From Candidatus Poribacteria bacterium (GTDB lineage: Bacteria; Poribacteria; WGA-4E; PCPOR2b), in contig JAJEAL010000111.1 of the NCBI GenBank assembly GCA_022822785.1, positions 1-64,000 of the forward strand: a DNA stretch of 64,000 nucleotides. Reading direction: 5' to 3'. Of the stretch, positions 1,286 through 58,685 are shown in pieces. The notes under the pieces are model-generated. The model searched no databases and was not told where the DNA came from. It saw nothing but the letters and a program-made list of their open reading frames with translations. The stretch's first letter is position 1. Each line of letters begins with the position of its first letter. The translations under genes were made by a program, and so were the position numbers.

Positions 1286-1326
1286 AAAAAAGCCGGTGGA
1301 ACATGCACGTTCCACCGGCTCTTTTT
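1286..1326. terminator. Bidirectional rho-independent terminator
   Basis: A perfect 12-bp stem, AGCCGGTGGAAC (1291-1302) and its complement (1309-1320), closes a 6-base loop. It is flanked by an A-run on the left and CTTTTT on the right. It sits between the convergent small gene (plus) and CARF-RelE gene (minus), so it can end both transcripts. Confidence 0.9.
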
Positions 1327-1370
1327 ACTGACTGCTACAGCATATTTTCGGATAAACAGTTTTCTCAGTC

Positions 1371-2513
1371 CTACGGACTTTTGTACACGTAATCATGCCC
1401 GCCATAGTGCCGAAGGGTCAACCCGCCATCATCAACCGTGCAACTGACACGGTTATTTTGAGTAACCCGAAACGTATGGATACCCGCTCTGCCTTCCGCC
1501 CCGCGAAGCTTTTCATAGTTCAGCGAACCTCCGAGAAGGCCACTCGTGTGTCCCCCATCCCTGTCGACGGTATATGAAACCGCCGCTAAAGTCTCTTGCA
1601 ATTTGAGACGCTCCTTGGGATTGCTCTCACGGTTGAAGTCATTGCGGAAAGTTCTCGCATACACTAACCGTGGAAATGGCAATAGCTCCGCTGCCAATAT
1701 ATCCGCTTTGGTCCGGTTCCAAATCAAGGTACCCCACGCCGATAACCCCGTATCGGTCTCGTCATCCCCCTCCTCTAAGAATTCGAGCAGCGTCTCCGGA
1801 ATATCTTCGAGTTCTCGACGCGGATACACTGTGCCCGCAGCCATTAGCGCGAATTCCGTTCGATATTCCTGAATCACGCTGACATCAATCTGAATCGGCA
1901 GCCGCGGAATCGTGATCAGGTCCGCTGTTTCCGACTCGAAGATGTAAACCACTTCATCGGCGTAAAACGCGCCGAAGGTATTCATATAGCCTTGCAGGCT
2001 TTTGAAACCGCCGACGAGATTAAAAATCACACGATAGCCGCCCTCACGGCGCCACGGCACATTCTCCTCTAACCACCGAATCAGTGCCTTTATTCCAGTC
2101 GTGAAAGCAGCGGTATCCTTTGTCGAAAGCCTTTCGGGTGTGTGGATGGATACACTAAGCCCTTGGTCCGCAAGAAAATCCCGAATCAGTCCGCCGGTCC
2201 GTTGTCCCTGGGCGGTATCGCTGCAGATGAGATAGTGCTGATCGGGACTGTTTCGGGGCAATCGCCCGTTATAGATGCCGTAGATGCCGTTCAGCTCCGC
2301 ACTGATTCGACGATTGAGTTTGGAATCCTCCTGCAAAAGTTTCTCCAGTGCTCGGTCAGCAAGTGTGCTAATCGCCGCGTCTGTCTCCGTATCTAATTCA
2401 TCTATCTTGCGGTTTGCCGAATCGCGCAACAGCCCCCGCCATTCAGTGGGATCGTCGTTATTAATCTGGTTGGTCAGGATGCTTGTCCCGACGGTTGATA
2501 AAACAAAACGCAT
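1371..2513 (-). CDS. CARF-domain CRISPR ancillary protein with C-terminal RelE-like domain
   Basis: 380 residues. The N-terminal ~215 residues match the APE2256-type CARF fold that senses cyclic oligoadenylate made by type III CRISPR complexes: STVGTS at 6-11, NLVGGFKS at 165-172, then YIFES and LPRLPI-like strands at 190-207. After an acidic linker (~235-258) comes a ~100-residue domain whose end (FRVTQNNRVSC, then RHYGGHDYVY) looks like the last strands of RelE/HigB mRNA interferases. CARF-RelE fusions (Cami1) are known cyclic-oligoadenylate-activated, ribosome-dependent mRNA-cleaving effectors, and that is the likely role here. A GGAGG lies 7 bases before the ATG. It is next to the array and convergent with the small gene. 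The CARF call is strong; the RelE assignment is by motif only, and I cannot assign catalytic residues. Confidence 0.82.
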   Translation of the reverse strand: MRFVLSTVGTSILTNQINNDDPTEWRGLLRDSANRKIDELDTETDAAISTLADRALEKLLQEDSKLNRRISAELNGIYGIYNGRLPRNSPDQHYLICSDTAQGQRTGGLIRDFLADQGLSVSIHTPERLSTKDTAAFTTGIKALIRWLEENVPWRREGGYRVIFNLVGGFKSLQGYMNTFGAFYADEVVYIFESETADLITIPRLPIQIDVSVIQEYRTEFALMAAGTVYPRRELEDIPETLLEFLEEGDDETDTGLSAWGTLIWNRTKADILAAELLPFPRLVYARTFRNDFNRESNPKERLKLQETLAAVSYTVDRDGGHTSGLLGGSLNYEKLRGAEGRAGIHTFRVTQNNRVSCTVDDGGLTLRHYGGHDYVYKSP

Positions 2514-2682
2514 AGCCGCGCCTCCAATTATTGATGTATATTTGCTGTGGGTCTTTCAGGGGCAATCGTTTCTAAATCCGCGTCATCTGTGTAATCTTCT
2601 AAATCCGCGATTCAGATGGTTTTGCATCCCAATTTATTGGGATTCTCGACAAGTCGGAACCGATGCAGCATCGGGGCAATAA

Positions 2683-4053
2683 TTAGCTCCCCTCAAACCG
2701 AAACGCAAACAGATCCGCATCTTTGAGGACAAAACGTAGCCGCACCGGTTGACCTACCAACGAACGCAGATCTCCATCACCCGCCCACTTGACCGCACCG
2801 TCAATCTCGTCCCCGAACAGCTCAGGACACGCGTCCAACGTGAAGCCCGACTGCGGTTCACCGGCTATATCCTGAATCTCAACCCGAACCGATCCCACCG
2901 CCGATGTCGAGAAGTTCAACTTCAAGGTGTTACCCCCAAACATCAGTGGACGGGTGACAAACTCACCCCCGGCGTAGCCGGCGCGGACCGACACAAACCC
3001 ATCCGTCCGAAGCGAGAATCGACGGATACCGACACTCGGCAGCCGCCAGTTCTCCATACCGTACAGCGATAGTTCTTCGGGCGTGGTCTGTAGAATGCCC
3101 CGCTCCATATAGATCCCGCGTTCATGCCAGTTGCCTGCATCCAGCCCGGGCCGTACAAAAGCCTCCATAAAACTCCGATCGAAGCGGAGTCCATCGCGGC
3201 TCGACATAAACACAATGTCATTCACCCCCGAACCGTATTCCCAGCCCGGAATCGGCTCACGTTCCGGTACGAAGCGTGAAGGAAACATCAGATACGTCCC
3301 CGGTGCCCGCTCGTATTGGACACAAGCGTTGGTGTAGAGATGCTCAAAAGGCGTATCGCCGGCGTCAATCGGTTCAAGCGGCGTCCAGCGGCGAAAATCT
3401 GTGGAGGTCGAGCGTCGAATCCAGCGTACCCCACTCTTGAAGTTGCCTTCACCCGCCACACCCCGCGTATAAGCGACGTATTCCCCCCGTTCTGCGTCCC
3501 AAAAGGCGACGTTGTGCGAATCGAACGGTCTATCCGTCAAGATCGGTTCAGTCTGCATCAATCGCCAGCGCAGCCCGTCCGGCGAGACCAACGCAAGTAT
3601 ATCGCCGGTCCGCACGATAGCCTTATATCTTTCATCCTCCGGCGCATCGGGATGGAGATCAAGGAACGGCGACATATTGTTGCCCGGTCCCGTCCAAACG
3701 AGGTTGTTGTCCGTCGATCCCTGAAATTCAATCAGTCCGAGTCGTGGCTTCTCCCAGTGTATCCCGTCCGTGCTTTCAGCGTAACCGATGAGCGGTTGGC
3801 GCTCACCCTGAATGGGCATCTCCTGATCGCAGCGATACCACGCCCGGAAGCGGTCCCCTTCACGGAACGTTACCATATAGGAGACACCGCCCCGTTCCCA
3901 CGGATGTTCGGCAGAAATTACAATCTCACGCCGCACCGGCTCATGCAAACGCCGCGTGACCGCGTGCGCCTCGGCAATCCAGAAATCGTCCACAAATAGT
4001 TGTCGGTCTGTGCCGATATGAATGGGTGCTCTATCGTTATTTTGTTGTGCCAT
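2683..4053 (-). CDS. Glycoside-hydrolase-like five-bladed propeller protein (GH32/43 type)
   Basis: About 456 residues from the ATG at 4053, which has AGGGG seven bases upstream. An ATG 30 bases earlier (4083) is in frame but has no ribosome site. Repeated strands such as YAESTDGIHWEKP, VSPDGLRWR and SSRDGLRFDRS are the blade signatures of the GH32/43/68-like superfamily common in planctomycetes and related groups. The C-terminal ~110 residues (TRPLMFGGNTLKLNFST onward) look like the beta-sandwich that follows such propellers. No signal peptide is evident, so cytoplasmic action on a sugar or glycoside is inferred. The substrate cannot be told. The gene is monocistronic, with a long repeat-rich upstream region. 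Confidence 0.65.
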   Translation of the reverse strand: MAQQNNDRAPIHIGTDRQLFVDDFWIAEAHAVTRRLHEPVRREIVISAEHPWERGGVSYMVTFREGDRFRAWYRCDQEMPIQGERQPLIGYAESTDGIHWEKPRLGLIEFQGSTDNNLVWTGPGNNMSPFLDLHPDAPEDERYKAIVRTGDILALVSPDGLRWRLMQTEPILTDRPFDSHNVAFWDAERGEYVAYTRGVAGEGNFKSGVRWIRRSTSTDFRRWTPLEPIDAGDTPFEHLYTNACVQYERAPGTYLMFPSRFVPEREPIPGWEYGSGVNDIVFMSSRDGLRFDRSFMEAFVRPGLDAGNWHERGIYMERGILQTTPEELSLYGMENWRLPSVGIRRFSLRTDGFVSVRAGYAGGEFVTRPLMFGGNTLKLNFSTSAVGSVRVEIQDIAGEPQSGFTLDACPELFGDEIDGAVKWAGDGDLRSLVGQPVRLRFVLKDADLFAFRFEGS

Positions 4054-4100: not shown

Positions 4101-4134
4101 AGAAACCGAGTTTTTTCTTGAAAACTCAGTTTCT
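4101..4134. repeat. Dispersed palindrome (AGAAACCGAGTTTT type), copy 1
   Basis: AGAAACCGAGTTTT (4101-4114) is followed by AAAACTCAGTTTCT (4121-4134), a near-perfect 14-bp inverted repeat. A second copy occurs at 51425-51458, and a shorter, diverged one at 22765-22803. It could fold as a hairpin or terminator in RNA. Confidence 0.75.
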
Positions 4135-4362
4135 CCAAGTCGCTCTGCACTCTCTTTTGACATAAGCCTTGATGGTTATCAGCCCTGTTTTCCCTACAGA
4201 TAGCGACAGCAAAACCCAACGCTTACAAGATCGATTCTATCATAGGAGATTCCGGCACGTCCAGAGAAATAGCGTGCTGCGTTTCTTTGTGCTGCTCTTC
4301 TATATCTGTGCTATTATATTGTAGGTCGAAATTCATATCTCAACACCCAAAGGTCAACAGAA

Positions 4363-4554
4363 TTATGGTGAATTAAAAAAATAAGTAGACACTTTCGTCC
4401 CTGGTAGGCGCTGTTTCCAACTGCGCCGGTCTGAAGTGTCTCATTACCGGTAGGTGCGGTTTCCAACCGCACCGGTTTGGCGTGTCTGATTACCGGTAGG
4501 CGCTGTTTCCAACTGCGCCGGTACAGAGCGTCCAAGTAATTCTAAAATCTACCA
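4363..4554. mobile_element. MITE-like element, family 1, copy A
   Basis: The left end begins TTATGGTGAATTA and the right end is TCCAAGTAATTCTAAAATCT followed by ACCA; the two ends are imperfect inverted repeats. The interior holds three 28-bp palindromes (4403-4430, 4449-4476, 4495-4522) of the GGTAGGCGCTGTTTCC/GCGCCGGT type, spaced exactly 46 bp apart. No transposase is encoded. Other family members end at 10332, 46904 and 58685 with the same right-end sequence. Confidence 0.6.
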
Positions 4555-4576
4555 AAAATAAAAGGAGAAAACGTTC

Positions 4577-4786
4577 ATGCGCCACGAAAAATGGAAATGT
4601 CCCAAATGCGACCATGCTGAATTCGAGACCGATATTTTCCAAGCGACGGGCGGCACACTTGCCAAACTGTTTGATATCCAAAACAAGAAGTTTACCACCG
4701 TTTCATGCGCGCAGTGCCAATATACCGAGATCTATAAAACAGATACCTCGCGCTTGGGTAACATCTTCGATTTCTTCACCAGTTAA
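4577..4786 (+). CDS. Small zinc-ribbon nucleic-acid-binding-type protein
   Basis: 69 residues with two zinc knuckles, CPKC (8-11) and CAQC (44-47), spaced as in the zinc_ribbon_13 family. The conserved middle TGGTLAKLFDIQNKKFTTVSC is followed by the typical YTEIYK end. AAAGGAG precedes the ATG. Members of this family are called zinc-finger nucleic-acid-binding proteins, but no biochemical role is established. It is followed 19 bp later by a small membrane protein on the same strand, probably co-transcribed. It lies directly downstream of a MITE-like element. Confidence 0.75.
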   Translation: MRHEKWKCPKCDHAEFETDIFQATGGTLAKLFDIQNKKFTTVSCAQCQYTEIYKTDTSRLGNIFDFFTS

Positions 4787-5210: not shown

Positions 5211-5304
5211 CATATCGGCAGCGAAAGAGGGCAAGATATGAGGAAGTGTGCTTTGAGAAGATCCGCGTGGCGCGGTTTAATTGGGGGGGATGCTAGCGGA
5301 GTAG

Positions 5305-5330
5305 TAGGTGCGGTTTGTAACCGCACCGGT
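5305..5330. repeat. Hairpin repeat between convergent genes
   Basis: GGTGCGGTT-TGT-AACCGCACC (5307-5327) is a perfect 9-bp stem of the same family as the units inside the 4363-4554 element. It lies between the convergent membrane-protein and oxygenase genes and may act as a transcription barrier, though it lacks a T-run. Confidence 0.7.
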
Positions 5331-5397
5331 GCCGACTTGGGGTCACGGATGCTAGCGGCTAGTAGGGCTAACTGGTCGCCCGTTTCATTCACGACTC

Positions 5398-10205: not shown

Positions 10206-10332
10206 TTATGGTGAATTAGACAAATAAGCAAACATGAAAGGTAGTAGGCACACTCCGTGTGCCGTAACTCCGCGCACAACGTCCTGGCCTCGCTCGTTCA
10301 CAGTATTCAAGTAATTCTAAAATCTACCATAA
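10206..10332. mobile_element. MITE-like element, family 1, copy B
   Basis: The left end is TTATGGTGAATTAGACAAAT and the right end is TTCAAGTAATTCTAAAATCT then ACCATAA. At 127 bp it is the most compact two-ended copy. The interior carries a short palindrome around GGCACACTCCGTGTGCC (10248-10264). No coding capacity. Confidence 0.6.
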
Positions 10333-21550: not shown

Positions 21551-21614
21551 CAAGCTGAGCTAATACTCGTAGGTCGAGATTCACATCTTGACACGCCCGA
21601 CACGTCTTAGTCGC

Positions 21615-25688: not shown

Positions 25689-28205
25689 TTATTTGAGAAT
25701 TACCATACGTCGTAAGTCGGTATAATCATCTGCACGAAGTTGATAAAAATAAACCCCGCTTGCGACCGTTTCGCCGATTGCGTTGCGACCATCCCAATAG
25801 ACAGCTTTTGACCGGACGGTGTAGTATCCCGCAGGTTGATACCCCAGATCGAATTGGCGCACCGGGTTACCTTTTATATCATAAACTGTAACCGTCACGT
25901 CGGCATCACCGGCAAGTTGGTACGGAATCCACGTCTCCGGGTTGAACGGATTGGGATAGTTAGCCAAAAGTGCCGTCTCTTTCGGAACTATTACTGTAAG
26001 TAGCCGTTCCAAGAAAAGAATTCCTCTCTGCGTCCTTACGTCTGTAAGATCTAACCTTTCTGCTTCGGCAAGCCAACCCTTGACATCGGCGGGGCTCAGG
26101 TCGGTCAGTGCCCAGGGATGTCCAGCAGGGGCGGCGGCAGTATTCCCTATCGCACCGGCGACCTGAACGAGGTCAGTAATGTCCACAACACCATCCCCGT
26201 TGACATCGGCATCGTTTTCCCCGGTTTGGCCCAAACGTAATCCCACCAAAACTACATCCAAGATGTCAACCACCCCATTCCCATTGACATCCTCAACCGG
26301 CGGAACCGCCTTGACAACAGAAGGCGGCGGTGGGAGTGTAACATCCCATAGAAGCACCGTGCCATCCCAACTCCCACTCGCAAGGGTCTTTCCATCAGCA
26401 CTGAAAGCAACACTCTCAACGCTCGTTGCATGACCGATGAGGGTCTTTAACGATTCACCGGTAGCAGTGTCCCACAAGCCAACCGTATCATTCCACATAC
26501 CAGCTGCCAGAATCTTGCCATCAGGACTAAAAGCGAGGGTCTCGCAACCGTGCGAATCCCTTTCGATAGCCATCACTTCCTCACCGGTGGCGACATCCCA
26601 TAGGCGGATGACACTGTCCCAGCCTGCGCTCGCAACCGTTGTGCCATCGGGACTGAAGGCAACCGTAAGCACATGCCCCCTATGGCCCTCAAGGACATGT
26701 AAGGTTTCGCCGGTGGCGACATCCCACAGACGAACGGTGCGGTCCCGACTTCCACTTGCGAAAATTTTTCCATCGAGGCTGAACGCAATGCTCTCAACCC
26801 CGGTGGTATGCCCACTGAAGGTTCTCAAACGCGTCCCGGTCGCCACGTCCCACAACCGGATGTCATCGTCCTCGCTTCCACTCGCCACCATGCTCCCATC
26901 GGGACTGAAAGCAACGCTTATGATATACGAGGTATGCCCGACGAGGGTTTTCAAGTGTGCCCCCGTATCTACAGCCCACAAGCGGACCGTATCGTCCTGA
27001 CTGCCACTAGCAAGCGTGCGTCCATCGGGGCTAAACGCAACGATGTCCACATCATCCGTATGCCCGAACAGGACATGCTCGCGCTCGCCTGTTTCAGTGT
27101 TCCACAGTCGGATAGTACTGTCCCAACTCCGACCGATAAGGACACGACCCTCCGGACTGAACGCAACGTTCAATACGAGATCCGTGAACCCAGTAACGGT
27201 GTTGATGTGCTCACCGGTATCAACGTCCCACAGACGGAAAGACGCATCCCACGCCCCACTGGCAATCGTGCGGCCATCGGGGCTAAACGCAACCTGAATG
27301 ACATCAGCCGTATGATCGGCCAAGATGTGAACCGTTTCACCAGTCTTGACATCCCACAGGCGGACAGTATCGTCCTCGCTTGCACTCACTAGGATGCCCT
27401 CAGTCGAAAAACCGAGATCATAGATAAGGGAGGTGTGCCCGGTGAGGATATTGACAAGCTCACCCGTATCCGCATTCCATAAACGGATTCTCGCGTCGTA
27501 ATCTCCACTGGCAATTAGACTTCCATCCGGACTGAAAGCGACTGCCCGGACAAGAGACGTATGCCCGATAAAGGTTCTCATGTTTTCGCCCGTGCTGACA
27601 TCCCACAGACGAACCGTTTGATCCCAACTTCCACTAGCGACCATATCCCCATCTGGACTAAAAGCAACGCTAGTGACCCGATCCGTATGTCCGCTCAGCG
27701 TATGAATGACCTCACCTGCCTCAACATCCCACAGACGAACAGTTCGGTCGTAACTCCCACTAGCGAGGGTCTGTCCATCGGGGCCGAAAGAAAGGCTTCG
27801 TATACCACTCCTATGTCCAGTAAGGGTTTTGATGTCCTCACCGGTGGCAGTATCCCACAGACGGATAGTTCGATCCCAACCCCCACTAGCAAGGATATTT
27901 CCAACTGGAGAATACGCCATAGAAGACGGTGAGTAGGTCGCATTAGAATATATCGCGGTCTGTCCGGTCAGCAGATCAACCTCTTGAAGGGTTTCTGTAT
28001 CGTAAAGCCAGATACCGATGGCGGTGGCGACTGCAAGGCGGCTGCCGTCAGGCGAATACTGAAGTCCAGCTATCCACCCTTTACCAAATCGGGCAATCGC
28101 ATCATCGGGCAATCGCCATTGCGGATTGTCTTGAGTGAAGCCATCTGATAGAAATAGAGTAGAGAGTACTAATAAAATAAGGCTAAAAAACACTGTCCTT
28201 TTCAT
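25689..28205 (-). CDS. Secreted WD40-repeat protein with dockerin-like pair and sorting tail
   Basis: 838 residues. A signal peptide (MKRTVFFSLILLVLSTLFLSDGFTQ) is followed by ~14 WD40 blades (about 30-630), each with VAFSPDG, ASGS and RLWDV motifs, enough for two propellers. Then comes a dockerin-I-like pair of calcium loops (DVNGNGVVDILD, DVNGDGVVDITD, ~645-695). A helical spacer precedes a ~85-residue C-terminal beta domain (NPFNPETWIPYQL to RRMVILK) of the FlgD-like/sorting-tail type. AAGGAG precedes the ATG. It is a close tandem paralogue of 28304-30811. Extracellular binding is likely; the target is unknown. Confidence 0.88.
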   Translation of the reverse strand: MKRTVFFSLILLVLSTLFLSDGFTQDNPQWRLPDDAIARFGKGWIAGLQYSPDGSRLAVATAIGIWLYDTETLQEVDLLTGQTAIYSNATYSPSSMAYSPVGNILASGGWDRTIRLWDTATGEDIKTLTGHRSGIRSLSFGPDGQTLASGSYDRTVRLWDVEAGEVIHTLSGHTDRVTSVAFSPDGDMVASGSWDQTVRLWDVSTGENMRTFIGHTSLVRAVAFSPDGSLIASGDYDARIRLWNADTGELVNILTGHTSLIYDLGFSTEGILVSASEDDTVRLWDVKTGETVHILADHTADVIQVAFSPDGRTIASGAWDASFRLWDVDTGEHINTVTGFTDLVLNVAFSPEGRVLIGRSWDSTIRLWNTETGEREHVLFGHTDDVDIVAFSPDGRTLASGSQDDTVRLWAVDTGAHLKTLVGHTSYIISVAFSPDGSMVASGSEDDDIRLWDVATGTRLRTFSGHTTGVESIAFSLDGKIFASGSRDRTVRLWDVATGETLHVLEGHRGHVLTVAFSPDGTTVASAGWDSVIRLWDVATGEEVMAIERDSHGCETLAFSPDGKILAAGMWNDTVGLWDTATGESLKTLIGHATSVESVAFSADGKTLASGSWDGTVLLWDVTLPPPPSVVKAVPPVEDVNGNGVVDILDVVLVGLRLGQTGENDADVNGDGVVDITDLVQVAGAIGNTAAAPAGHPWALTDLSPADVKGWLAEAERLDLTDVRTQRGILFLERLLTVIVPKETALLANYPNPFNPETWIPYQLAGDADVTVTVYDIKGNPVRQFDLGYQPAGYYTVRSKAVYWDGRNAIGETVASGVYFYQLRADDYTDLRRMVILK

Positions 28206-28303
28206 TGAAATTGATTCTCCTTCTTAATTATCAGCTACAGAATCCCAAATACACGGCAAATGGGCGAGTGGTCTTTAGATTCAGCTCAGACCAATGGGTG
28301 CGT

Positions 28304-30811
28304 TTATTTGAGAATTACCATGCGCCGTAAGTCAGTATAATCGCCTGCACGAAGTTGATAGAAATAGACGCCACTTGCTACTGATTCGCCGGTTTCGTTA
28401 CGTCCGTCCCAATATGTTGCTTTCGTCCTACTCGTATAGAATCCTGCGGACTGATAGCCCAAATCAAACTGACGTACCGGCATACCTTTTGTGTCATAAA
28501 TTGTGAGGCTGACATCGGCGTCGTTGGCGAGTTGATACGGGACCCATGTCTCCGGATTGAAGGGGTTGGGGAAGTTAGGCAAGAGTGCTGTCGCTTTCGG
28601 AGCCAGGGTTGCAAGCAGTTGTTCAAGGAAAAGGAGCCCTTTTTGTGAACGGACATCCGTGAGATTTAATGCCTGCGCTTGGGTAAGCCAACCCTCAATA
28701 TCGGCGGAGGTCAGGTTTGCTAGAACTATCGGATGCACCGAAGGGGCAGCAAACGTACCGTTTATTGCACCGGCAACCTGAATCAGGTCCGCAATATCGA
28801 CAACACCATCCCCGTTGACATCAGCATCATTTTCCCCGATCTGTCCTAGACGCAAGCCGACTAACACTAAATCCAAGATGTTGACCTCCCCATTTCCGTT
28901 GACATCCTCAACGAGTGGAGGCGGTGGTTCTTCGAGTTCTGGCGGCGGTTGTGGAATATCCCACAGTAGCACCGTCCCGTCTTGGCTTCCACTGGCGAGG
29001 ACCGTACCATCGGCGTTAAAAGCTATGCTCTCAACCCTAGAGGAATGTCCGGTAAAGGTCTCGATATGCTCTCCTGTTTCAACATCCCACAAGCCAATCG
29101 CATTACCCCACCCGCCGGCTGCGAGCGTCTGTCCATCTCGACTGAAAGCAACGCTCTCTATCGCACTTTCGACGCCGTAGTCGCTCGCGTGGAGGGTCAT
29201 TACTTCATCACCAGTGACGGGATCCCACAAACGAAGGGTATTGTCCCACCCCCCACTTGCGAGGAGTGTGCCCTCCGGATTGAAAGCAACGGTCAACACA
29301 TGCCCGCTATGACCGAAGAACCCTTGCAAGATATCGCCGGTCTCAACATCCCACAAACCTATCGCGGAGTCTCGACTCCCACTTGCGAAAGCGCTGCCAT
29401 CGGGACTGAAAGCAATACTCTCGACACCGGCACCGTGCCCGTAGAAGGTGTCCAGACGTTCCCCCGTGACAACATCCCACAAACGGATTGTGTCGTCCTC
29501 GCTTCCACTCGCGAGGACTGTACCATCCGGACTAAATGCGATGGTGATAATATATGCCCAGTGCGCGACGAGCGTTTTCAGGTGCGCGCCAGTCTCAGCG
29601 TCCCACAGACGAACGGTATTATCCTGACTGCCACTGGCAATCGTGCGCCCATCCGGACTAAAAACAACGATGTCCACATCGTCTGTATGCCCTACGAGAA
29701 CGTGCTGCCGCTCTCCTGTTTCGGTATTCCAGACATGAATCGTTTGATCCCAACTCCGACCAACGAGGGTGCGGTCACCCGGACCGAAAGCAACGCTAGT
29801 GGCCCGATCGGCATGTCCAGTAAGGGTGCCGATGTTCTCTCCGGTGTCAACACCCCATAGGCGAACGGTTGCATCCCCACTCCCACTTGCGAGGGTGTTA
29901 CCCTCCGGGCTAAACGCAACCCTGTAGACATCAGCCGTGTGTTCAATAAAGGTTTTGACTGTTTCACCCGTGACCGCGTTCCATAAGCGAATAGTATCGT
30001 CCTCACTTGCGCTTGCCAAGATGCCCCCATCCGAAGAAAAAACGACTTCGTAGATACTTGAAGTATGCCCGGTGAGAGTTCTGATTTTCTCGCCTGTCTT
30101 AACATTCCACAAATGAATCGCCGAGTCATAGTCGCCACTCGCGAGGGTGCCTCCCCAACCAAAAGCAACCGTTTGGATCAGAGAGGTATGCCCGATGAGC
30201 GTTTGGGTGTTCTCGCCGGTGTCAACATCCCACACGCGAACGGTCTGATCCCAACTTCCACTGGCAACCATATTCCCGTCTCGGCTAAAAGCAACGCTAG
30301 AGACCCAATCCTCATGGCCGATAAGCGTTTGGGTGTTCTCGCCGGTGTTAACATCCCACAGGCGCACGGTGTCATCGTAACCCCCGCTAACAAGGGTTTT
30401 TCCGTCCGGACTGAGGGCAATGCTCAAGATACCCGCCTCATGCCCGGTAAGGGTGCTGATGCTCTCACCCGTTGCAGTATCCCATAACCGAATGGTATCG
30501 TCGTAACTTCCACTGGCAAGTATACTCCCATCCGAAGAATAAGCGATGGTAGAGACTATTTCCGTATGCCCGGTGAACAGATCAACCGCTTCGAGGGTTG
30601 CCGCATCGTAGAGCCAAATACCGATAGCGCTGCCCACCGCGAGCCGTGTGCCATCAGGCGAATATTCAAGCCCAGATATCCACCCTTTGCCAAATCGCGC
30701 AGTAGCACCATCGGGCAGCTGCCACTGCGGGTTCTCTTGCGCGACGCTATTTGATAGAAATAGTGCGAAGACTAATAATAGGATAATAGTAAACCAGGTT
30801 GTCTTTTCCAT
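28304..30811 (-). CDS. Secreted WD40-repeat protein with dockerin-like pair and sorting tail (paralogue)
   Basis: About 835 residues from the ATG at 30811, chosen because GGAG lies at a workable distance and a signal peptide (MEKTTWFTIILLLVFALFLS, then NSVAQ) starts exactly there; an ATG 36 bases upstream is in frame. The architecture equals the 25689-28205 gene: WD40 blades, acidic Pro-rich hinge (PPPELEEPPPPLVED), two dockerin-like calcium loops and the NPFNPETWVPYQL sorting tail. The 98-bp gap and the shared 5' sequence (GAGAATCAATxTCAATG) show a tandem duplication. Confidence 0.88.
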   Translation of the reverse strand: MEKTTWFTIILLLVFALFLSNSVAQENPQWQLPDGATARFGKGWISGLEYSPDGTRLAVGSAIGIWLYDAATLEAVDLFTGHTEIVSTIAYSSDGSILASGSYDDTIRLWDTATGESISTLTGHEAGILSIALSPDGKTLVSGGYDDTVRLWDVNTGENTQTLIGHEDWVSSVAFSRDGNMVASGSWDQTVRVWDVDTGENTQTLIGHTSLIQTVAFGWGGTLASGDYDSAIHLWNVKTGEKIRTLTGHTSSIYEVVFSSDGGILASASEDDTIRLWNAVTGETVKTFIEHTADVYRVAFSPEGNTLASGSGDATVRLWGVDTGENIGTLTGHADRATSVAFGPGDRTLVGRSWDQTIHVWNTETGERQHVLVGHTDDVDIVVFSPDGRTIASGSQDNTVRLWDAETGAHLKTLVAHWAYIITIAFSPDGTVLASGSEDDTIRLWDVVTGERLDTFYGHGAGVESIAFSPDGSAFASGSRDSAIGLWDVETGDILQGFFGHSGHVLTVAFNPEGTLLASGGWDNTLRLWDPVTGDEVMTLHASDYGVESAIESVAFSRDGQTLAAGGWGNAIGLWDVETGEHIETFTGHSSRVESIAFNADGTVLASGSQDGTVLLWDIPQPPPELEEPPPPLVEDVNGNGEVNILDLVLVGLRLGQIGENDADVNGDGVVDIADLIQVAGAINGTFAAPSVHPIVLANLTSADIEGWLTQAQALNLTDVRSQKGLLFLEQLLATLAPKATALLPNFPNPFNPETWVPYQLANDADVSLTIYDTKGMPVRQFDLGYQSAGFYTSRTKATYWDGRNETGESVASGVYFYQLRAGDYTDLRRMVILK

Positions 30812-46730: not shown

Positions 46731-47459
46731 ATAAAATCTCCTTCGGATATAGTCTATCCACCTATCGAAAAATGGATGTTTCCATGAAATGAACCGGTAA
46801 AGTCCTCCTGATAAGAATGAACCGGTAAAGTCCCCCTGATAAGGGGGATTTAGGGGGTTAGCTGTGCCCTGAGAGTGTCCAAGTAATTCTAAAATCTACC
46901 ATAATTATAATTTGGGTTGCCACCTAAACCTTACCCGCCCGGAACATCGACTATAATTTGCGAGGCACGGCGGTCCCTCCCCTCTTTCTTTAACGCACTA
47001 CATATTATTTCGGATTAGTCCCCACAGTATGACAGATGTGTAATATACCAATCCAAGCTGCTAGGGCGTGTTGCCATCTATGCAAAATCGTTTCTAATCG
47101 TAGGGGCGACCTGTTTATAGAAACTTATACTACTTGCGCTCTCAGGCAGGTAGCAACTCAGGCTATAGTATACCAAACATTAGGCTGTATGGCAAGAACC
47201 GCAAGACAGAAAAAACTGGCAGATCCTCCCACTGCCGTGGGGCAGCTATCCATGGGGAATAGTCACCTAATTTGTACCTATGGATTTGCCTTTACCCACC
47301 CGCCTCACCTCTGGTATAATAACCCAAATTGCCACCCAAATCTTCAACACAATGTGTGAAGAACGCAAATCTCCATGCTGTTTCCCTCACGCATCATTCT
47401 TCCGTAGTTGGGTAGACAGTGGTGAATCCCAACACTAGAGTCGATGAACTAATACGCTA
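46731..47459. other. Long intergenic region with repeats, no gene
   Basis: 729 bp. It contains two 28-bp tandem units starting at 46788 and 46816 (AATGAACCGGTAAAGTCC), a CCCCCTGATAAGGGGG hairpin near 46832 and a family-1 MITE right end at 46876-46904. The stretch 47060-47160 (GGGCGTGTTGCCATC) might be an insertion-sequence remnant, but no transposase is present. A 107-codon frame at 47036-47359 lacks a ribosome site and domains. Confidence 0.6.
46876..46904. repeat. Family-1 MITE right end, copy C
   Basis: TGTCCAAGTAATTCTAAAAT followed by CTACCATAA matches the right ends at 4554, 10332 and 58685. No matching left end is seen nearby, so the element is a solo end or has lost its left part. Confidence 0.6.
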
Positions 47460-51424: not shown

Positions 51425-51458
51425 AGAAACCGAGTTTTTTCTTCAAAACTCGGTTTCT
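51425..51458. repeat. Dispersed palindrome (AGAAACCGAGTTTT type), copy 2
   Basis: AGAAACCGAGTTTT (51425-51438) and AAAACTCGGTTTCT (51445-51458) are perfect 14-bp inverted repeats around a 6-base centre. It matches 4101-4134 except for one base in the right arm and one in the centre. Confidence 0.8.
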
Positions 51459-58489: not shown

Positions 58490-58685
58490 AACTATAGTAA
58501 ACGATAAAAACAGATAGCCCCTTTCGCTCCTCATGTTTGGTAGGCGCAGTTGGAAACAGCGCCGATGCGGTGCGTTTAGAAACCGCGCCTACCGGGTGAT
58601 AGCTCAGATTTTTCTAACGCCAGTCGTCGAGGGTTGCTCACCTCGCCGATTGGGGGTGTCCAAGTAATTCTAAAATCTACCATAA
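58490..58685. mobile_element. MITE-like element, family 1, copy D (left end degenerate)
   Basis: The right end (58657-58685) reads TGTCCAAGTAATTCTAAAAT then CTACCATAA, as in copies A-C. A possible decayed left end, ACTATAGTAAACGATAAAAA, starts near 58490. The interior carries the same GGTAGGCGC-type hairpin units as copy A. Confidence 0.45.

Follow-up and report, generated by a model that had tools for sequence, protein, structure and literature searches.

The family-1 repeats of this genome are probably two nested mobile-repeat systems, with a MITE of the IS630 type on the outside and GTAG-headed REP hairpins on the inside. We typed 74 distinct elements in which both ends were paired and both flanks were available. 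These elements are 104-405 bp long, have common ends and are without coding capacity. Judging by their sequences, the family-1 elements are MITEs of IS630 type, because an IS630-family element with similar ends is present in the same genome and because uninterrupted sites joined at TA were found. The hairpin cargo appears to be largely a second system of GTAG-headed REPs that is separate from the MITE.

Family-1 elements in the window

The window, i.e., the whole stretch of DNA that was analysed, comprises bases 1-64000 of contig C7 in a 5.6-Mb genome of 147 contigs that is 96%-complete. The left end TTATGGTGAATTANACAAATAAG was found at 4363 and 10206 (two matches in the window, allowing up to three mismatches; none in 100 shuffles), and the right end was found at 4538-4557, 10313-10332, 46885-46904 and 58666-58685 (four matches in the window; shuffle mean of 0.01). 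A sequence-only reading of this DNA had proposed at least two copies with both ends, and those at 4363 and 10206 were indeed matched well above the shuffles. The same reading had assigned a right end only to the copies at 46904 and 58685. This stands for the former, for which no left end was recognised in the window, but not for the latter, where CTATAGTAAACGATAAAAACAGATAG at 58492 was found to be a left end (seven mismatches in 39 positions relative to a left-end variant). With this left end, three of the four window copies are complete (Table 1). The three 46-bp tandem hairpin units described earlier were also recovered. If the 4363 copy is written like the other copies its boundary lies at 4557, with the outer right TA mutated to AA. 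The composite structure of the 58492 element recurs elsewhere in the congeners with identity of up to 87%.

Table 1. Family-1 elements and related hairpins annotated in the window.
Feature	Position	Strand	Remarks
Complete family-1 MITE, three tandem H1 hairpins	4363..4557	+	Ends; uninterrupted site in L194
Three H1 REP-type hairpins (GGTAGG..GCC)	4403..4522	+	Starts 4403, 4449, 4495; period 46 bp
Complete family-1 MITE, H2 subtype, 127 bp	10206..10332	+	Site without element in 5/5 congeners
H2 hairpin GTAGTAGGCACACTCCGTGTGCC	10241..10263	+	Variant near RAYT-like gene of own genome, L129
Complete family-1 MITE, 195-bp composite subtype (H1, inverted H1, third hairpin)	58492..58685	+	
Family-1 right end, left end not recognised	46885..46904	+	
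H3 interior (CCCCCTGATAAGGGGGATTTAGGGGG), not GTAG-headed, adjoining the right end at 46904	46832..46857	+	
Solo H1 hairpin AGTAGGTGCGGTTTGTAACCGCACCGGT, without family-1 ends	5303..5330	+	Same variant flanks RAYT genes of L295, L364
GTAGGTCGA.. hairpin, 17 bp left of the 4363 MITE	4321..4346	+	Family flanking RAYT gene in L305

Several other repeats were observed in the window. The GTAGGTCGA family represented at 4321 has further copies at 21569 and 34619, and a hairpin that is not GTAG-headed, GAAACCGAGTTTTTTCTTGAAAACTCGGTTTC, occurs at 4102-4133 and 51426-51457. A 12-bp direct repeat, GGATGCTAGCGG (5285-5380), stands on either side of the solo H1 hairpin at 5303 and may be an insertion trace or chance. 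A CRISPR-like array occupies positions 1-900, where 14 copies of the repeat CTTTTAATCGAACCATTGTGGAATTGAAAC follow one another at intervals of about 66 bp, separated by unlike spacers, and a degenerate copy lies at 1255. Positions 26343-30519 hold about 20 copies of a 126-bp coding repeat, which may belong to a WD40-type repeat protein.

Abundance, anatomy and distribution

A genome-wide search for the right end, as the sequence-only reading had recommended, gave 204 matches in the own genome (105 + 99, up to three mismatches) against 0 + 1 for the reversed-pattern control. The left end gave 80 matches under the same threshold (40 + 40; reversed-pattern control 0). Among the distinct right ends in the set of extracted loci, 71 of 103 have a left end within 450 bp. 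When both ends are read inward they have in common TTATGGT, ATT and a subterminal AGACACT/GGACACT, which together form an imperfect repeat of about 31 bp. Both outer ends are TA in 68 of the 74 elements, although the search pattern itself favours TA.

The interiors of the 74 elements fall into several types, with 39 H1 (GGTAGGYGCNGTTTNNAACNGCRCC), 12 H2 (GGCACACTCCGTGTGCC), 10 H3 (CCCCCTGATAAGGGGGATTTAGGGGG), 2 H4, 2 mixtures and 9 that have no type by our cut-offs, several of the last being visible variants of typed interiors. The H1 elements range from 104 to 335 bp, with 18 of the 39 measuring 110 bp, and the longer ones gain hairpin units of about 40-46 bp. At L114:568-722 we observed an H2 element in which the hairpin loop holds a second hairpin (of GATTCATCGGGG type), so that two repeats are nested inside one MITE.

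The exact 24-mer of the right end was found in at least 89 stretches of the public genome collection, and among the matches listed every title is Candidatus Poribacteria. The right end is present in 33 of 39 genomes and has at least 14 matches in 30 of them (own genome included in both counts). Three genomes have one or two matches, a number that the reversed control also reaches in some genomes, and the remaining six of the 39 searched have none. Among the five congeners, G001 has a single match and the other four have 59-156; the family is therefore patchy.

Insertion sites

For each of the 74 elements the two flanks were joined and searched for in the available DNA of the own genome and its relatives. 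An uninterrupted site spanning the join was found for seven of them, with TA at the join in all seven. Locus L007 and its counterpart L205 are 97.5% identical over 119 bp with no gap, and a single TA stands where the own genome holds the element. The 4363 element is missing from L194, where the flanks line up in register, with 84% identity and no gap over 101 bp. None of the five congeners has the 10206 element at the orthologous position; the intergenic stretch has diverged there and a straight alignment across the join was obtained in L317 only. The remaining four join-spanning cases are insertions into other repeats, such as that at L011, with one of them (L119) being gapped near the join. 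No clean join was found in the congeners for the other two window copies: for the 58492 site no right end was found at eight loci, where the intergenic stretch is too diverged, and the 46904 site gave partial matches only.

The uninterrupted sites with TA at the join agree with the earlier description of a non-autonomous inverted-repeat element with a real boundary. That description had also suggested aligning the flanks for target-site duplications, and TA was found at the join in both of the copies first called complete. The word "active" holds on the evolutionary scale only, through the empty sites in relatives, and no interior change at a shared site was found. A search with 111 right ends for a shared site with different interiors in two genomes found none; it gave only empty sites (for the L003 and L007 elements) and, for the IS630 element, a second copy of the same locus. 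A REP empty site inside a MITE was likewise not found, and in the corresponding search for the solo hairpin at 5303 the L194 alignment ends at window position 5219, short of the hairpin.

Out of the 42 right ends placed relative to genes with a crude ORF caller, 41 lie outside ORFs, which make up 89% of the sample, and the 4363 copy precedes an ORF starting at 4577. Such positions would be expected of an element useful to the host, that is, a terminator, promoter or mRNA-stability hairpin under selection at gene ends. However, the same crude caller shows no orientation bias between tandem genes (17 same, 15 opposite), right ends are not over-represented between convergent (2) or divergent (7) genes, and the sites are empty in relatives, making host use highly improbable as an explanation. 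The placement of the right ends fits tolerated parasites and a host role is not indicated.

An IS630-family element with similar ends

Six DDE_3 matches were found in the own genome. At L061:1441-2350, a 910-bp element is bounded by family-1-like ends and has a transposase inside. The ends are similar but not identical to those of the MITE, with about 25 of 31 left and 23 of 30 right bases in agreement as counted by eye. A transposase element with the ends of the MITE had been suggested as something to look for, and L061 provides one in the same genome with similar ends.

The L061 transposase, which is the sole full transposase of this kind in the own genome, is split over two frames. One frame encodes HTH_Tnp_IS630 and the following one DDE_3, the two meeting at a run of eight A. 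Its DDE part scores 102.2 bits with the NCBIfam IS630 model (cut-off 100). Programmed frameshifting occurs in some IS630 members, and the layout in L061 may reflect either a programmed frameshift or damage. Relatives of this transposase were found in 25 of the 39 genomes, own genome included. Related elements or fragments in G018 and G017 (L327, L339) have right ends nearly identical to those of the MITE.

Hairpin cargo

The H1 hairpin has 390 matches in the own genome with up to two mismatches (control 0). In an 800-kb sample of this genome, whose contigs were selected by length, 10 of 42 H1 places are inside paired family-1 elements. The others are in family-1 elements whose left end was missed by the search, in a second frame, in tandem arrays or solo. 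The second frame is short, has the ends ATGARGTTTCAGAAAATAAT and ATTAATCTTCAT and carries H1 (e.g. C88:44178 and C129:49440); four of its right ends, three of them with a left end, were found in the 800-kb sample. The sequences flanking the RAYT genes of L294 and L295 resemble this frame.

Across the GC-rich perfect hairpins of the 800-kb sample, GTAG is the commonest tetramer at the 5' base (17 of 156, or 21 times background), although many of the 17 belong to one family and are thus not independent. GTAG next to a short hairpin marks the REPs that are cut by RAYT transposases, as set out in the relevant part of PMC3733652. The tetramer is present in 65 of the 74 elements and stands immediately 5' of a short hairpin in H1 and H2. 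H3 is not headed by GTAG, and seven of the ten H3 elements have no GTAG at all.

Pairing in the H1 stem is largely maintained, as 87% of the cells pair over 65 variants. Two-sided changes were found in 32 cells compared to 13.7 in shuffles, but 25 of the 32 are one C-G/T-A pair so that the events are fewer than the cells. In 31 of the 65 variants the middle pair (columns 10 and 20) does not form.

Association of the hairpins with RAYT genes

GTAG hairpins were counted within 400 bp of Y1_Tnp loci in relatives, using two hand-picked sets of 20 loci each. A total of 63 hairpins were found at 18 of the 40 loci (43 at 12 of 20 in one set and 20 at 6 of 20 in the other), and the other 22 loci have no GTAG hairpin nearby. 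The controls gave 40 GTAG hairpins in 800 kb of the own genome, 5 in 88 kb around 29 IS200-type loci (at 4 of the 29) and 3 in 93 kb around 30 IS630 loci. The 625 kb around 80 family-1 ends in other genomes contained 86, an enrichment that is expected. IS200-type Y1 transposases were dropped as the REP partner because few GTAG hairpins occur at their loci.

The hairpins flanking the RAYT genes belong to the H1 cargo family in L294, L295 and L364 and are close variants of it in L296 and L302, while those in L305 belong to the family seen at 4321, 21569 and 34619 of the window. Four of the five proteins scanned passed the NCBIfam RAYT cut-off (L294, L295, L303 and L305); the fifth, the L129 protein of the own genome, is under it (68.3 against 80). 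No H1-linked RAYT was recognisable among the four Y1_Tnp matches of the own, 96%-complete genome, which comprise an IS200/IS605 gene, a broken gene and one RAYT-like gene. The last, in L129, has an H2 variant 73 bp upstream, on one side only.

The L129 locus has further features. The GAAACCGAGTTTTTTCTTGAAAACTCGGTTTC hairpin is found on both sides of the RAYT-like gene, at 1253 and 1875. The gene itself (1294-1869, minus strand) lies between ORFs that were read by eye as cas2 (995-1246) and cas1 (2035-3144), and what seems to be a remnant of a RAYT-like C-terminus is present upstream of it.

The likeness between cargo and RAYT flanks could also arise if MITEs had landed near RAYT genes. The family-1 element would then be an ordinary IS630 MITE whose hairpins are internal and were diversified by mutation and slippage. 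This is in keeping with the lack of a recognisable H1-linked RAYT in the own genome, with the linkage of interior type to the ends (see below), each subfamily moving as one unit, and with L295, where a family-1 MITE does adjoin the RAYT gene. However, L295 is the sole locus with close GTAG hairpins that showed a right end, most RAYT-flanking hairpins having no close family-1 ends. Hairpin families that are not cargo behave alike (L303, L305, L350), and the hairpins also occur solo and in the second frame. On balance we consider an ordinary MITE of this kind unlikely.

Interior type and end sequence

A tree of the end sequences was built for 61 of the 74 elements, leaving out 13 that were mixtures, untyped or the longest. 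With 33+30 end bases, at least nine changes of interior type are needed, whereas 200 shuffles averaged 21.3 and never fell below 17. Restricting the tree to the outer 24+24 bases raised the number to 15 (shuffle mean 21.5, lowest 17). The tree is poorly resolved, with 44 of 56 inner branches open. The consensus subterminal sequence also differs by interior type. The interior type is therefore linked to the end sequence, a pattern that fits a small number of acquisitions, after which the subfamilies were amplified.

The earlier term "exchangeable" for the hairpin cargo is too strong in view of this correlation (nine changes against about 21 when shuffled). Free exchange, in which interiors are often swapped between frames by recombination or REP transposition so that any end may carry any hairpin, draws on the outer 24+24 bases, whose 15 changes are nearer to the shuffles, on mixed and nested elements (L030, L101) and on the hairpin variant that the MITE in L295 shares with the neighbouring REP. 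It is hard to reconcile with the longer ends, where nine changes fall well short of the lowest shuffle, or with a subterminal consensus that varies with type, and we regard it as quite doubtful. The proposal that the inner hairpins amplify independently was upheld, since arrays exist outside any frame and tandem growth without a frame is also seen beside the RAYT genes of L296, L302 and L364.

Proposed mechanism

Under the nested reading, the outer layer would be a MITE whose terminal inverted repeats, about 31 bp long, are imperfect and which a DDE transposase of the IS630 family would move in trans, inserting it at TA and duplicating that dinucleotide. The inner layer would consist of GTAG-headed REPs of the kind recognised by RAYT tyrosine transposases, with the family link coming from the RAYT flanks in relatives, and RAYT action may have brought the REPs into the MITE. 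A few MITE founders would have taken up different REPs (H1, H2), after which IS630 activity may have amplified every founder into a subfamily of its own; H3, which lacks the GTAG head, stands outside this account. In some copies the hairpin units would then have grown in tandem by replication slippage or RAYT action. Several observations speak against the nested reading, namely the own genome without a recognisable H1-linked RAYT, the 10 of 74 elements whose H3 interior has no GTAG link, the split L061 transposase, the 22 of 40 Y1_Tnp loci without a nearby GTAG hairpin, and the failure to find either a REP empty site or a shared site with different interiors.

The spread of REP hairpins is considered to require a RAYT. 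With about 390 H1 hairpins, no recognisable H1-linked RAYT and a share of the hairpins in MITEs, this genome offers a case where one selfish element may carry another. We tentatively suggest that REPs without a RAYT of their own might persist and spread by hitch-hiking in IS630 MITEs, thereby outliving their transposase. The DDE transposase would disperse the frame while hairpin recombination or RAYT action would grow the cargo. If true, this would be a two-transposase partnership of unrelated mobile repeats. The persistence of REPs without RAYT also becomes testable by genome comparison.

Comparison with known systems

In the open literature searched, we found neither an account of such elements from Poribacteria nor one of an IS630-type frame that is shared by several REP families and for which both transposase families were identified. 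The poribacterial single-cell paper PMC3909097 contains one transposase passage, and the string "palindrom" is absent from it. Thiomargarita MITEs are treated with another partner in the corresponding part of PMC4853749. Each layer is already known on its own, as IS630 MITEs and as GTAG REPs, with a close precedent in the sections concerned of PMC3733652.

The hairpins resemble the RAYT-associated GTAG REPs, REPtrons and REPINs in having a GTAG head, a short GC-rich stem, tandem or inverted arrays and positions adjacent to RAYT genes, as these are presented in parts of PMC3733652 (see also PMC3116915). In contrast to RAYT-associated REPs, a share of the hairpins here sits in a DDE-type MITE, and the genome has no recognisable H1-linked RAYT. 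Insertion of the TA type is known from both RUP and Correia elements. The outer frame is like RUP of Streptococcus pneumoniae (in the relevant passage of PMC3049150) and the Correia elements of Neisseria (in that of PMC2817692) in being short, non-autonomous and provided with IS630-like terminal inverted repeats. RUP is described as a simple repeat in the passage cited, whereas the interior here is modular and apparently REP-derived.

When the architecture alone is compared, the elements are also like the BOX elements of Streptococcus pneumoniae, which have fixed ends and variable tandem inner units. In the section on BOX in PMC3049150, however, the inner boxB is not described as a REP and the proposed mobiliser is ISSpn2, not IS630. 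The uptake of REPs is a route by which modular, BOX-like MITEs may have arisen.

The closest likeness is to Anabaena variabilis, for which GTAG REPs inside TATA-ended palindromes were noted in 2013. There, the GTAG-15 REP dimers consist of GTAG-headed REPs in a longer palindromic frame with TATA-like ends, and section 7 of that paper presents the frame only with the REP and does not identify it as an IS630 MITE (PMC3733652). The present elements differ from those of Anabaena variabilis in that several hairpin families are found in one frame and that IS630 and RAYT proteins are both identified.
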